DNA from: Nitrosomonas oligotropha
GTDB taxonomy: Bacteria; Pseudomonadota; Gammaproteobacteria; Burkholderiales; Nitrosomonadaceae
Length of the DNA: 64,000 nt
Assembly (NCBI RefSeq): GCF_900106555.1
Contig: NZ_FNOE01000002.1
Location: forward strand, 124,001 to 188,000
Direction: 5' to 3'
A program made the translations under genes and the position numbers. The notes below the pieces were generated by a model. The model searched no databases. It saw nothing but the letters and a program-made list of their open reading frames with translations, and was not told where the DNA came from. This document shows, one piece after another, positions 59,902 to 63,321 of the stretch (its first letter is position 1; each line of letters opens with the position of its first letter).

Positions 59902-61959
59902 GTGAAACAATATTTCATTTTGTCAGAAAAACGATCTTTATTTTCTTATGCCGCCTCGATGCTCTCCATCGGCATACTATCCGCTTGCACCCTTATCCCG
60001 GGAAACGAACCTGATGATCGCCACGCATCTGCTGTTGAGAACGATCATCTTGGCGATAGCTATACAAAGGTCCAATACCTAGATCAGGGTTGGAATTCTG
60101 CCGAGAGTTTGTGGTTTTACTACACCACACAGGGATCAAACTTGATGCCCTATGATTTCTTTTTGGCGCTGGAGAAGCCGGGACAGTCCCAGCTTTTCCG
60201 TTCCGATGAGAATATGAATTTTTACCGCTACTTACCTCAGAAGGCTTCATCGATAAACCCTGATGCACTGCCGGTCGGTTGGGTTAAGGATAAATACAAA
60301 GGCAAAGAATATGTCGGTTTGACTTGCGCGGCTTGCCACACCGGACAGATCAACTATAACGGTGTAGGTATCCGTATTGATGGTGGTCCGGCCAGCGCGG
60401 ATATGGAAAACATCATGATCGATCTGGCCAAAGCCTTGAAACATACGCGTGAAGATGCGGAAGCTAAGCAGCGGTTTGTCAAAAATGTATTAGCCAAGGG
60501 GAATTACAAGTCGGAAGCTGATGTGCTTGCTGATTTAAGTAAGTATGAACAGCGCATATACAGTTATACCTATATCAATGCAAGTCAAACTTCTTATGGC
60601 TATGCACGGCTGGATGCCTTCGGACGCATATACAATCGTGTGCTTGAACATACCATTAACGCAAGAGAGCTGAGAGAGATACTGAGCGACCGGAAGATAA
60701 TGGATGATAAAGTGATGACGAAGGAGCAAATCGATGAAATCCTGGCAAAAATTGATAATGTGATCACGGGAGAGCAGCGTGATCATTTGATGGAGCGTCT
60801 GAGTAAGTATCTGACCTTTGAGCAAATAGCGCTGTTGAATAATGAGATTTTCAATCGGCCTGATGCACCCGTTAGCTATCCTTTCTTATGGGATATTGCG
60901 CAACACGATTATGTGCAATGGAATGGGATCGCTGACAATGCCGGGCTGGGGCCGATTGGCCGGAATACCGGTGAAGTGATTGGTGTATTTGGCACGCTTG
61001 ACTGGAAAGAAGAAAAAGGAACGTCATTGACATCGATTCTTTTCCAAGGCTCCGGTAACACGCGAGTCAAATTTGATTCTTCCGTTGATGTGCAAAACTT
61101 GCACAGAATTGAATCGCACTTGAAGAAATTGAATTCTCCGGTATGGCCGCAAGAAATTCTAGGAAAAATCAATGAGGAGCAAGCTGCAAAAGGCAAACTA
61201 TTATTCGATGAATATTGTGCGGCCTGCCATGCCAGAATTGATCGTGACGATCCAAACCGGCGCGTCGTCGCTCATATGACGAAAGTCAGCGCGATAGGAA
61301 CGGATTCCACGATGGCAGAGAATAGCTTCAAATATCAGGGTTATTCCGGCATTTTGCGCAACCAGTATGTAGGACTTGAAGTGGGTAATATTTTGCTGGA
61401 TAAGGAAGCGCCCGTTGCAGCTTTGCTGACTCAAGCAACAAAAAATGTAGTGGCTACTCCTGATCCCGATAAGTGGTTTTTCCAACGTTGGACGGATTGG
61501 GCTGCCAATCTCGTAACAGCCTATGCGGAAAATGAGATTAAATCCTCAATCAAAAATGGTAACTATGATCCGGATACTACAGTCAATCCATTGGCCTCAC
61601 TTAATGCCTACAAGGGACGGCCTTTGAATGGAATCTGGGCAACCGCGCCGTATTTGCACAATGGTTCTGTTCCATCATTGTATGATTTGTTATTACCCAA
61701 AAAGCGTGAAGGTGATCCGGAAGATGGGGAATACCGTCCTGATCAATTCGAAGTGGGTTCACGCGAATTTGATCCGGTCAAAGTGGGATTAAAAAGTAGC
61801 GGATATAAAAGCTTTACTTTTGATACCAGTTTTCCTGGCAATAGCAACGCCGGGCACGAATATGCATCCGGCAAAACAGCGCAACCGAATGGTGTAGTTT
61901 TAAGACCGCTGAATAAGGATGAAAAACTCGACGTGCTGGAATATCTCAAAACTTTGTAA
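59902..61959 (+). CDS. two-haem c-type cytochrome lipoprotein, RoxA/MauG-like
   Basis: 685 residues. A lipobox LSAC at 26-29 predicts an outer-membrane or periplasmic lipoprotein. Two haem c sites are present: CAACH at 142-146 and CAACH at 439-443, about 300 residues apart. The segment APVSYPFLWDIAQHDYVQWNG (322-342, given only by its ends here: APVSYPF and YVQWNG) resembles rubber oxygenase RoxA and the di-haem peroxidase superfamily. The usual use of such proteins is oxygen or peroxide chemistry; the substrate here is unknown. A P450 gene follows 87 bases downstream. Confidence 0.8.
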   Translation: MKQYFILSEKRSLFSYAASMLSIGILSACTLIPGNEPDDRHASAVENDHLGDSYTKVQYLDQGWNSAESLWFYYTTQGSNLMPYDFFLALEKPGQSQLFRSDENMNFYRYLPQKASSINPDALPVGWVKDKYKGKEYVGLTCAACHTGQINYNGVGIRIDGGPASADMENIMIDLAKALKHTREDAEAKQRFVKNVLAKGNYKSEADVLADLSKYEQRIYSYTYINASQTSYGYARLDAFGRIYNRVLEHTINARELREILSDRKIMDDKVMTKEQIDEILAKIDNVITGEQRDHLMERLSKYLTFEQIALLNNEIFNRPDAPVSYPFLWDIAQHDYVQWNGIADNAGLGPIGRNTGEVIGVFGTLDWKEEKGTSLTSILFQGSGNTRVKFDSSVDVQNLHRIESHLKKLNSPVWPQEILGKINEEQAAKGKLLFDEYCAACHARIDRDDPNRRVVAHMTKVSAIGTDSTMAENSFKYQGYSGILRNQYVGLEVGNILLDKEAPVAALLTQATKNVVATPDPDKWFFQRWTDWAANLVTAYAENEIKSSIKNGNYDPDTTVNPLASLNAYKGRPLNGIWATAPYLHNGSVPSLYDLLLPKKREGDPEDGEYRPDQFEVGSREFDPVKVGLKSSGYKSFTFDTSFPGNSNAGHEYASGKTAQPNGVVLRPLNKDEKLDVLEYLKTL

Positions 61960-61999
61960 TATCTGGACACTCTTGAGTAATCATTCTTAACTTGCGATT

Positions 62000-62020
62000 C
62001 CCCGTGGTCTTGCCACGAGG
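62000..62020 (+). other. hairpin between the cytochrome and P450 genes
   Basis: CCCCGTGG and CCACGAGG pair with one mismatch around TCTTG. No T-run follows, so it may be a stability or partial-termination element in a shared transcript. Confidence 0.4.
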
Positions 62021-62046
62021 ATGTTTATTGAACAAGGAGTATTGAA

Positions 62047-63321
62047 ATGAGTACAAACTATCTTGAACGGTATGATGCGACTCCCGATACGGAAAAATTT
62101 CCCTTGGTACGCCGCTGGATGGATACAGAACCTTTACCTTTCTTTAAGGAATTGCGCGCTAAGCGTCCGATCCTGGTGACGCCGGATTGCACCTTGGTGA
62201 CCCGGTTTGACGATGTCAGGGAAATACTGCTGATGTACAAAGTATTCACCGTTAAGCCGTACGTTCCAAAAATGGACAATTACCTTATGGCGCATGATGA
62301 CGATGCACTGCATACCCGTGAGAAATCGCTGATGCAATTTATGCTGAATCGTGATGATTTGCCCAGAGTGCGCAATATGGTTGCAGATATTGCCGGTGGC
62401 ATTCTCGGTAATGCCAGTGGGCAGATCGAAGTTGTGAATAAATTTTGCCGGATGGTTCCCGCGACATTGGTGCAAAAGTATTTTGGACTGACGGGCGCTA
62501 ATCGGGAAGACTTGATCGAGTGGTCGTATTGGAATCAATACGATACGTTCCATAATCAACCATTCGATTTATTGCCTCCGGAACTGTCAAAACGCATTAT
62601 CGACCGGCATAATGAAACTTCCAAAAAGCTGGGAGACTATATCACGATGCTGATTGCGAAACGGTTATTGGCAGTGAAACTCGAGAAATTGACGTTTTCA
62701 ACAATCGTCAGATTGGATGATGATATCGTCACTCGGATGCTGCGCACCAGTTTTGCGAAAGAATTGGATTTTGATATCAAACGGCTGGGTGTGAATGCCG
62801 GCGGCTTGTTGATCGGTGCGATCGAGACCACTGCGCAAGCCGTAGCGCAAGTGCTGCAATATTTGTTCCAGCATTCGCAATGGCTGGCGGCGGCTAAAGC
62901 GGCTGCACAAAAGGAAGATACAACCGAGTTCGACGGTATCGTGTGGGAAGCATTGCGTTTTGTTCCGATCACGTCGTATTTGTTCCGCACTACGGTGAGC
63001 GATTACACGGCTGCGAAAGGAACAGACCACGAAACGGTTTTGCGTGCCGGTACTTATGTTTTGCCGGTGACGTTATCCGCGACGTTCGATGAGCGGGCAT
63101 TTGAGTCGCCGGATGAGTTTATTCCGCAGCGCAATTGGTATAACTATTTTCACTTCGGATTCGGTAACCATGAATGCCTGGGGCGTTACGTGGGTATGGT
63201 GATGATTCCTGAAATGGTTCGGCAAGTAATGCTGAAGAAAGATGTGGAGCCGAAAGGGGATATAGACTACAAATCCGGACCGTTCCCTGAAGCATACGAC
63301 CTTTCCTGGGCAACAGCGTAG
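62047..63321 (+). CDS. cytochrome P450
   Basis: 424 residues. The haem-cysteine loop FGFGNHECLGR (C377) is canonical, the ExxR motif is EALR at 301-304, and the I helix AGGLLIGAIETT (251-262) has the acid-alcohol pair E260-T261 used in oxygen activation. No membrane anchor. AAGGAG lies well placed before the ATG. No ferredoxin or reductase gene is nearby; the only redox protein alongside is the two-haem cytochrome upstream, though it would be across the inner membrane. Confidence 0.93.
   Translation: MSTNYLERYDATPDTEKFPLVRRWMDTEPLPFFKELRAKRPILVTPDCTLVTRFDDVREILLMYKVFTVKPYVPKMDNYLMAHDDDALHTREKSLMQFMLNRDDLPRVRNMVADIAGGILGNASGQIEVVNKFCRMVPATLVQKYFGLTGANREDLIEWSYWNQYDTFHNQPFDLLPPELSKRIIDRHNETSKKLGDYITMLIAKRLLAVKLEKLTFSTIVRLDDDIVTRMLRTSFAKELDFDIKRLGVNAGGLLIGAIETTAQAVAQVLQYLFQHSQWLAAAKAAAQKEDTTEFDGIVWEALRFVPITSYLFRTTVSDYTAAKGTDHETVLRAGTYVLPVTLSATFDERAFESPDEFIPQRNWYNYFHFGFGNHECLGRYVGMVMIPEMVRQVMLKKDVEPKGDIDYKSGPFPEAYDLSWATA

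Follow-up and report, generated by a model that had tools for sequence, protein, structure and literature searches.

A conserved gene pair of a RoxA-type di-haem cytochrome and a cytochrome P450 in the Nitrosomonadaceae, with a possible role in two-step lipid oxidation

A 64,000-nucleotide stretch of the genome of Nitrosomonas oligotropha (contig NZ_FNOE01000002.1), referred to here as the window, contains a gene for a di-haem c-type cytochrome lipoprotein that is followed on the same strand by a gene for a cytochrome P450. Do these two genes belong together, and which reaction might their products perform? A first-pass annotation had described two genes 87 bases apart, CAACH haem sites at residues 142 and 439 of the cytochrome, and C377, an EALR motif, and a Glu-Thr pair in the P450. 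All of these features were present as described, and the questions could be approached by comparison of genomes, protein families, and a structure model.

Conservation of the gene pair

The P450 profile of the window and the NCBIfam model NF040606, which represents the family of the cytochrome, were used to search 120 Nitrosomonadaceae genomes and matched 70 and 83 of them, respectively. P450s of the window type, with scores above 650 bits, were present in 56 of the 120 genomes, and 54 of these 56 were directly preceded by an NF040606 gene in the same orientation, the two matches being 49 to 295 bases apart. The two exceptions (genomes G100 and G101) had a different RoxA-like cytochrome gene directly downstream of the P450 gene. 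Conserved gene order had been set beforehand as the test of the pair, and the genes were not apart in most relatives. The presence of the pair in 54 of these genomes does not support the view of the first-pass annotation that it is unexpected.

A set of 77 loci was composed of 67 loci found by the P450 sequence plus ten others. A RoxA-type gene was located within 3.5 kb of the P450 gene at 66 loci, an animal haem peroxidase at three, a DyP-type peroxidase at three, and none of these at five. The RoxA-type gene was upstream on the same strand at 62 of the 66 loci, downstream at L045, L086, and L087, and on the other strand at L062. In Methylobacterium radiotolerans (L096:3805-8260), an annotated helix-turn-helix regulator gene separates the P450 gene from the di-haem gene, and the gap at locus L107 is about as long. 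A Methylovulum P450 gene with no haem peroxidase found nearby is followed by a multicopper oxidase gene (L051:11443-13137). On one short contig of genome G001 (L084:2292-5689), a RoxA-like cytochrome, an unknown protein of 431 residues, and a fragmentary P450-like frame are encoded. In genome G008, both NF040606 copies (L081:1452-3543 and L082:7209-9562) are split in frame, and the copy at L082 is followed by short P450 remnants (41 to 52% over 27 to 44 residues). No weight was put on a joint decay of the pair at L082, and a sequencing error may explain the frameshift because the copy at L081 is split, too.

A search for a terminator-like site in the 87 bases that separate the genes of the window found none. 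The hairpin of the gap, within a stretch of about 40 bases, also occurred in three of five other aligned loci, and the RNA fold of the gap was no better than that of shuffled sequences (z = −0.01). The cytochrome and P450 genes very likely form one transcription unit. A downstream Mut7-C gene (L002:11837-12595), at first taken as a member of this unit, was rejected since the genes at that position differ between genera.

Haem-peroxidase partners of the P450 lineage

The P450 was also followed beyond the Nitrosomonadaceae, using the P450 sequence alone. P450s of the window profile (E ≤ 1e-25) were carried by 17 of 398 genomes across the phylum. All 15 of the 15 P450 relatives outside the Nitrosomonadaceae, which come from ten genera and seven families by code and are not fully independent, either carried a haem-peroxidase gene no more than 2.1 kb away or were fused to one in frame. 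Inclusion of five Nitrosomonas P450s resulted in 20 of 20 with such a partner, three of the RoxA type and 17 of the DyP type. As controls, 40 other P450s were chosen among the PF00067 matches of these 398 genomes. None of these 40 had a haem-peroxidase partner (Fisher p about 8e-14 for 15/15 versus 0/40); some control contigs have short flanks, and since the detectors derive from the partners within the family, the count may be too low for common DyP genes beside the controls. When 115 of the 120 open reading frames nearest to the controls were scanned with Pfam, with the five longest left out, the 25 most frequent of 152 families included no haem peroxidase, which sets a bound of about two members for each haem-peroxidase family. 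Among 13 Nitrosomonas P450s scoring near 250 bits, eight were examined, and all eight had a DyP partner. Over all 97 loci, no partner was seen at five.

In five cases from two genera, the P450 and the DyP peroxidase were fused in one frame of 1408 to 1535 residues. In two of these frames, which were scanned with Pfam, the P450 match comes towards the start and Dyp_perox_C towards the end. The P450 lineage is tied to three unrelated haem-peroxidase folds, including these fusions, and it was seen in the Pseudomonadota, Cyanobacteriota, and Acidobacteriota, in addition to one Nitrospirota contig that ends before any partner. A Nitrosomonas cluster (L089:4354-9457) encodes two unknown small proteins, a DyP-type peroxidase, a P450, and a glutathione S-transferase (GST)-like protein, and the stretch joining P450 and DyP in the fused frames of L117 and L119 is related to one of these small proteins.

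The partners have kept motifs of their types. A GxxDG-like motif was present in 20 of 20 DyP partners, and the three partners of the animal haem peroxidase type (PF03098; L067, L097, and L098), which are encoded by neighbor genes, all contained Y-x-W-H. In cyclooxygenase, a Tyr385-x-Trp pattern contains the catalytic Tyr385, with the proximal His388 next to it, and this pattern is kept in fungal and cyanobacterial dioxygenases (PMC13049297; here and below, statements with PMC numbers refer to excerpts of these articles).

A quick P450 tree, reduced from 103 to 44 rows by removal of near-copies, required at least three changes of partner type by parsimony among the rows with known partner; this tree has long branches and several open forks, and the control L126 gave no match. 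In a similarly quick cytochrome tree, built from 30 of 82 rows without three partial loci and with one RoxC row as the root, the P450-linked cytochromes occupied several separate branches.

The partner type was accompanied by a difference in helix I of the P450. The Glu of the acid-alcohol pair was kept in 27 of 27 reduced rows with a di-haem, an animal-type, or no partner, including all 20 rows with a di-haem partner, and it was lost in 12 of 12 DyP-partnered rows, with Pro in 11 and Ala in one. From these residues, the DyP-partnered branch looks unfit for the usual activation of O2 and the branch of the window fit for it.

Taken together, this could be a P450 lineage with a near-constant haem-peroxidase partner, which was swapped among non-homologous folds at least three times and fused at least once. 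It would represent a general bacterial counterpart of the cascades from cyclooxygenase to thromboxane synthase and of fungal dioxygenase and P450, with oxylipins made by ammonia oxidizers. This broad proposal is tentative, and we judge it somewhat more likely to be wrong than right. No description of a di-haem-P450 pair or of such a partner swap was recognized in searches of the open-license PMC literature; the available part of PMC10879549 does not contain the word peroxidase, and that of PMC6405878 does not contain RoxA.

Identity of the cytochrome and of the P450

By its curated cut-off, the cytochrome is a member of NF040606, with 630.8 bits compared to the required 150 and a full-length match to positions 1 to 524 of the 524 positions of the profile. 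The predicted lipid anchor (Table 1) follows the general lipobox rule. The name of the family is “di-heme-cytochrome C peroxidase,” and a tested function of the family was not found. The curated models for RoxA, RoxB, and RoxC yielded 38.6, 56.8, and 56.5 bits, with cut-offs of 1000, 900, and 900, respectively.

The AF2 model of the cytochrome (pLDDT 76.5) could be superimposed on RoxA (4b2n) with a Z of 12.1 and a root mean square deviation of 4.2 for 392 of the 685 residues, located between residues 64 and 685. Among 526 aligned chains, RoxA alone reached a Z of at least 5, followed by a row with 4.8. The best solved structure for a profile of 28 cytochrome relatives was again RoxA (E = 3.6e-22). 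The model assigns the cytochrome to the RoxA-type fold. An ordinary cytochrome c peroxidase was rejected on two grounds: PF03150, the family of these peroxidases and MauG, gave no row at E ≤ 1, with the reservation that HMMER filters may hide weak rows, and RoxA was the sole chain with a Z of at least 5, with the reservation that absence of a family from a structure match list is no proof by itself.

The haem histidines of the cytochrome are 297 residues apart, compared to 222 to 246 in the short members of NF040606, and this insert distinguishes the branch of the window within the family. In the AF2 model, most of the added length forms helices. The spacing is 199 in RoxA, 245 in the 10S-dioxygenase PA2077 of Pseudomonas aeruginosa, and 235 in the diol synthase PA2078 (PMC4496055). 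The remark of the first-pass annotation on a longer haem spacing than in the rubber oxygenase was right, and these results support that the cytochrome is RoxA-like, stands outside the ordinary cytochrome c peroxidases, and represents a separate subfamily in which the stretch between the haems is extended.

At the site of RoxA Phe301-Trp302, the cytochrome contains Gln-Trp. This match depends on a hand-made ungapped alignment of P..W(9)[FQ]W[DN]G to the RoxA stretch because the profile comparison with RoxC reached the C-terminal part alone. It agrees with the values for PA2077 (F301Q, W251): homology models show F301Q in PA2077 and PA2078 and, at the second site, Trp251 in PA2077 and Ser in PA2078 (PMC4496055). 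Two RoxC proteins have Phe at the RoxA Trp302 site and Ala at the RoxA Phe317 site, and His641 of RoxA is the axial ligand of the C-terminal haem (PMC10837239). The counterpart of Phe317 in the cytochrome may be F363 or N355, by a gapped alignment.

The P450 has the PF00067 match, the haem-thiolate Cys, and the ExxR motif of this family (Table 1). It is the sole PF00067 match in the 3.32-Mb genome, and no export signal was seen by eye.

Table 1. Features of the cytochrome-P450 gene pair with their positions in the window
Feature	Position	Strand	Basis or remark
Di-haem c-type cytochrome lipoprotein, RoxA fold, NCBIfam NF040606	59902..61959	+	Open reading frame, GTG start, 685 aa
Lipobox LSAC, Cys29, predicted lipid anchor	59977..59988	+	Sequence reading
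First haem site CAACH, residues 142-146	60325..60339	+	Aligned with RoxA C191-H195
Mostly helical insert between haem sites, about residues 250-318	60649..60855	+	Gaps of short members in alignment; model
Gln339-Trp340, taken as equivalent of RoxA Phe301-Trp302	60916..60921	+	Invariant in 28/28; hand alignment
Second haem site CAACH, residues 439-443	61216..61230	+	Sequence and alignments
MauG-type motif PYLHNGSVP, residues 583-591	61648..61674	+	PF21419, 6.4e-18
His652 (in GHEY), aligned with RoxA His641	61855..61857	+	Invariant in 28/28; HMMER alignment to 4b2n
87-base gap	61960..62046	+	Ribosome site AAGGAG at 62034-62039, hairpin at 62000-62020
Cytochrome P450, 424 aa	62047..63321	+	ATG start; PF00067, 8.2e-15, 54.9 bits (cut-off 22.8)
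Glu260-Thr261, helix I acid-alcohol pair	62824..62829	+	Both invariant in 27/27
ExxR motif EALR, residues 301-304	62947..62958	+	Sequence and alignments
Haem-thiolate loop FGFGNHECLGR, Cys377	63154..63186	+	Sequence and alignments

The source genome contains a second NF040606 copy (L077:7373-9463, G000:C48) of 696 residues and 612 bits with a hydrophobic N-terminal stretch, for which no lipobox was found and which does not adjoin a P450 gene. Its counterpart occurs in tandem before the cytochrome-P450 pair in L030 to L033 and L043. A third, distant RoxA-like lipoprotein of this genome (L078:5791-7605, G000:C79) has 604 residues and, with 131.6 bits, is below the NF040606 cut-off; proteins of its kind are the P450 neighbors in L086 and L087. 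At L094:5766-9548, two different RoxA-like di-haem genes are located in tandem, not adjoining a P450 gene, and resemble the PA2078-PA2077 operon. A survey for RoxC found 2 of 369 genomes at E ≤ 1e-60.

Possible function of the gene pair

The reading that we prefer, with not quite an even chance of being correct, is that the pair would oxidize an unsaturated acyl lipid in two steps, with oxygenation by the cytochrome and further conversion by the P450. The exported, lipid-anchored di-haem protein would bind O2 at its N-terminal haem, and Trp340 would connect one haem with the other, in line with proposals for RoxA and PA2077. Addition of dioxygen to an unsaturated fatty acid or acyl chain would yield a hydroperoxide or another oxygenated product, probably a fatty-acid hydroperoxide. 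The cytosolic P450 may convert this product by isomerization to a diol or an epoxy alcohol, or by further hydroxylation, and this step would also clear the toxic hydroperoxide. Since the cytochrome is exported and the P450 seemingly is not, the product must cross the inner membrane.

RoxA-type oxygenases of fatty acids are known from Pseudomonas (PMC4496055) and couples of a dioxygenase and a P450 from fungi and animals (PMC13049297). The FadCcp system of P. aeruginosa, with PA2077 and the 7,10-diol synthase PA2078, consists of two RoxA-type periplasmic di-haem proteins encoded by one operon (PMC4496055). It resembles the window pair in the RoxA-type di-haem protein, the two-gene operon, the export, and the Gln-Trp of PA2077. 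It differs in that the second step is performed by a second di-haem protein, in the place of which the window has a P450, and in the haem spacing (published values of 245 and 235 versus 297). Overexpression of PA2077 without matching PA2078 was toxic, and the toxicity was gone when both were co-expressed (PMC4496055). Toxicity of the first enzyme as in P. aeruginosa would explain why the P450 rarely occurs without a peroxidase (5/97) and the cytochrome often without the P450.

With RoxA, RoxB, and RoxC, the cytochrome shares the fold, the two haem sites, the MauG-type motif, and the ligand aligned with His641, and it is a lipoprotein as is RoxC; it is far below the curated cut-offs and has kept the Trp that is Phe in the RoxC pair. 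The cytochrome c peroxidases and MauG of PF03150 also have two haem sites and the C-terminal motif, but the window cytochrome has about twice their usual size of 35 to 40 kDa (PMC4496055). The fungal DOX-CYP proteins and the cascades from cyclooxygenase to thromboxane or prostacyclin synthase likewise combine a haem dioxygenase with a self-sufficient P450 (PMC13049297), and three relatives of the window P450 (L067, L097, and L098) have an animal haem peroxidase of the dioxygenase-like kind as their partner. The window pair itself is outside the DOX-CYP family: its genes are separate, the RoxA fold is unrelated, and the P450 has kept Glu-Thr.

A lipid as the substrate is suggested by the fatty-acid enzymes of Pseudomonas with a RoxA fold, by the Tyr-x-Trp-His motif of the cyclooxygenase-like partners, and by lipid genes at four loci. 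A gene of the Zn-dependent phospholipase C family follows the P450 gene at L048 and L050, a gene for a phospholipase C-like phosphoesterase below the PC-PLC cut-off follows it at L045, and an annotated oleate hydratase gene is located about 3 kb before the cytochrome gene on a Bradyrhizobium plasmid (L099). Family names are no proof of activity in these cases.

Several observations weigh against the two-step lipid oxidation. The membrane crossing is the weakest step of the mechanism. The likeness to PA2077 is drawn from residues given in the literature. Three lipid proteins as queries, and thus three kinds of gene, matched 4 of the 97 P450 loci, three of which were the source loci of the queries, and 0 of 40 controls. 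Of the parsed matches, 70 for the P450 and 137 for the cytochrome, 82 of the 137 NF040606 matches were not beside such a P450, and 20 of 79 NF040606 genomes had no P450 of the window profile; the number of 79 instead of 83 genomes results from omission of cytochrome rows below 386 bits. The five loci without a partner among the 77 all belonged to the 22 loci outside the Nitrosomonadaceae found by the P450 sequence. Two of them (L060 and L063) are at contig ends, and three (L051, L064, and L068) have at least 6 kb on both sides. Finally, P450s that convert hydroperoxides, of the CYP74 and CYP152 kind, usually do not possess the acid-alcohol pair in helix I. The window P450 does not exhibit this loss but keeps Glu260-Thr261, a pair typical of O2-dependent monooxygenases.

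Alternative explanations

The Glu in helix I of the window branch speaks against a pure hydroperoxide isomerase and keeps another explanation alive, which we consider unlikely but serious. The P450 may be an ordinary monooxygenase that requires O2 and NAD(P)H, is served by a general ferredoxin, and shares a lipid or terpenoid substrate with the cytochrome, acting either first or second, with no hand-over of a hydroperoxide. The invariant Glu260-Thr261 (27/27), the Glu in all 20 di-haem-partnered rows, and the apparent location of the two proteins in different compartments would agree with this. However, neither a ferredoxin nor a reductase was recognized by eye among the open reading frames near the window pair, where no search for them was made, and the annotation of four plasmid clusters that contain the P450 lists neither of these genes. 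Moreover, a fusion to a DyP domain occurs in five relatives, while a fusion to a reductase, although not searched for, was seen at 0 of 97 loci.

Defense is a less probable function. In this case, the pair would remove lipid hydroperoxides or peroxide arising from ammonia oxidation, with the cytochrome as a peroxidase and the P450 as a hydroperoxide reductase or isomerase. The NCBIfam name of the cytochrome points in this direction, as do the DyP-type and animal haem-peroxidase partners of the relatives and, at L089, the GST-like gene that belongs to the DyP cluster, but a family name is a label that tests nothing, Y-x-W-H, a motif of dioxygenases, is present in all three animal-type partners, and the characterized proteins with a RoxA fold include oxygenases. 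Scavenging of peroxide, which the first-pass annotation had considered, is possible and not favored.

Cleavage of polyisoprene or terpenoids as by RoxA and RoxB is very improbable. RoxA is the sole solved structure with a Z of at least 5, and a Trp occupies the Trp302 site. On the other hand, the curated RoxA, RoxB, and RoxC models were missed widely, and rubber or terpenoid cleavage was rejected as the leading explanation; a rubber substrate finds no backing in these scores, either. Two RoxC proteins that were expressed had no rubber activity (PMC10837239), and the RoxC model scores equally badly here. A fatty acid would fit the context better than rubber.

Ammonia-oxidizing bacteria produce NO. 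A P450 of the nitric-oxide reductase kind (CYP55), handling NO from ammonia oxidation with the cytochrome as a mere neighbor, would make use of it, and CYP55A1 entries were matched in the PDB (E = 4.5e-8 to 1.6e-7), but they are outscored by more than 30 other PDB sequences, the pairing of 54/56 has to be considered, and relatives occur in methanotrophs and cyanobacteria, so that this possibility is close to negligible. Equally little credence is given to two unrelated neighbors, for which the frequent occurrence of the cytochrome without the P450 could be quoted, in view of the pairing of 54/56, the several paired branches of the cytochrome, and the partner rule of 15/15 versus 0/40.

Implications

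The two-step oxidation of a lipid offers a testable function for NF040606 and for a P450 of unknown substrate, both of which are common in ammonia-oxidizing Nitrosomonadaceae. That the haem-peroxidase fold beside the same P450 lineage was swapped is a hint that the P450 uses the product of a peroxidase or dioxygenase. If true, this would also hint at the role of those RoxA-like proteins that have no rubber activity, and the pair points to an oxylipin-like chemistry in chemolithoautotrophic bacteria.

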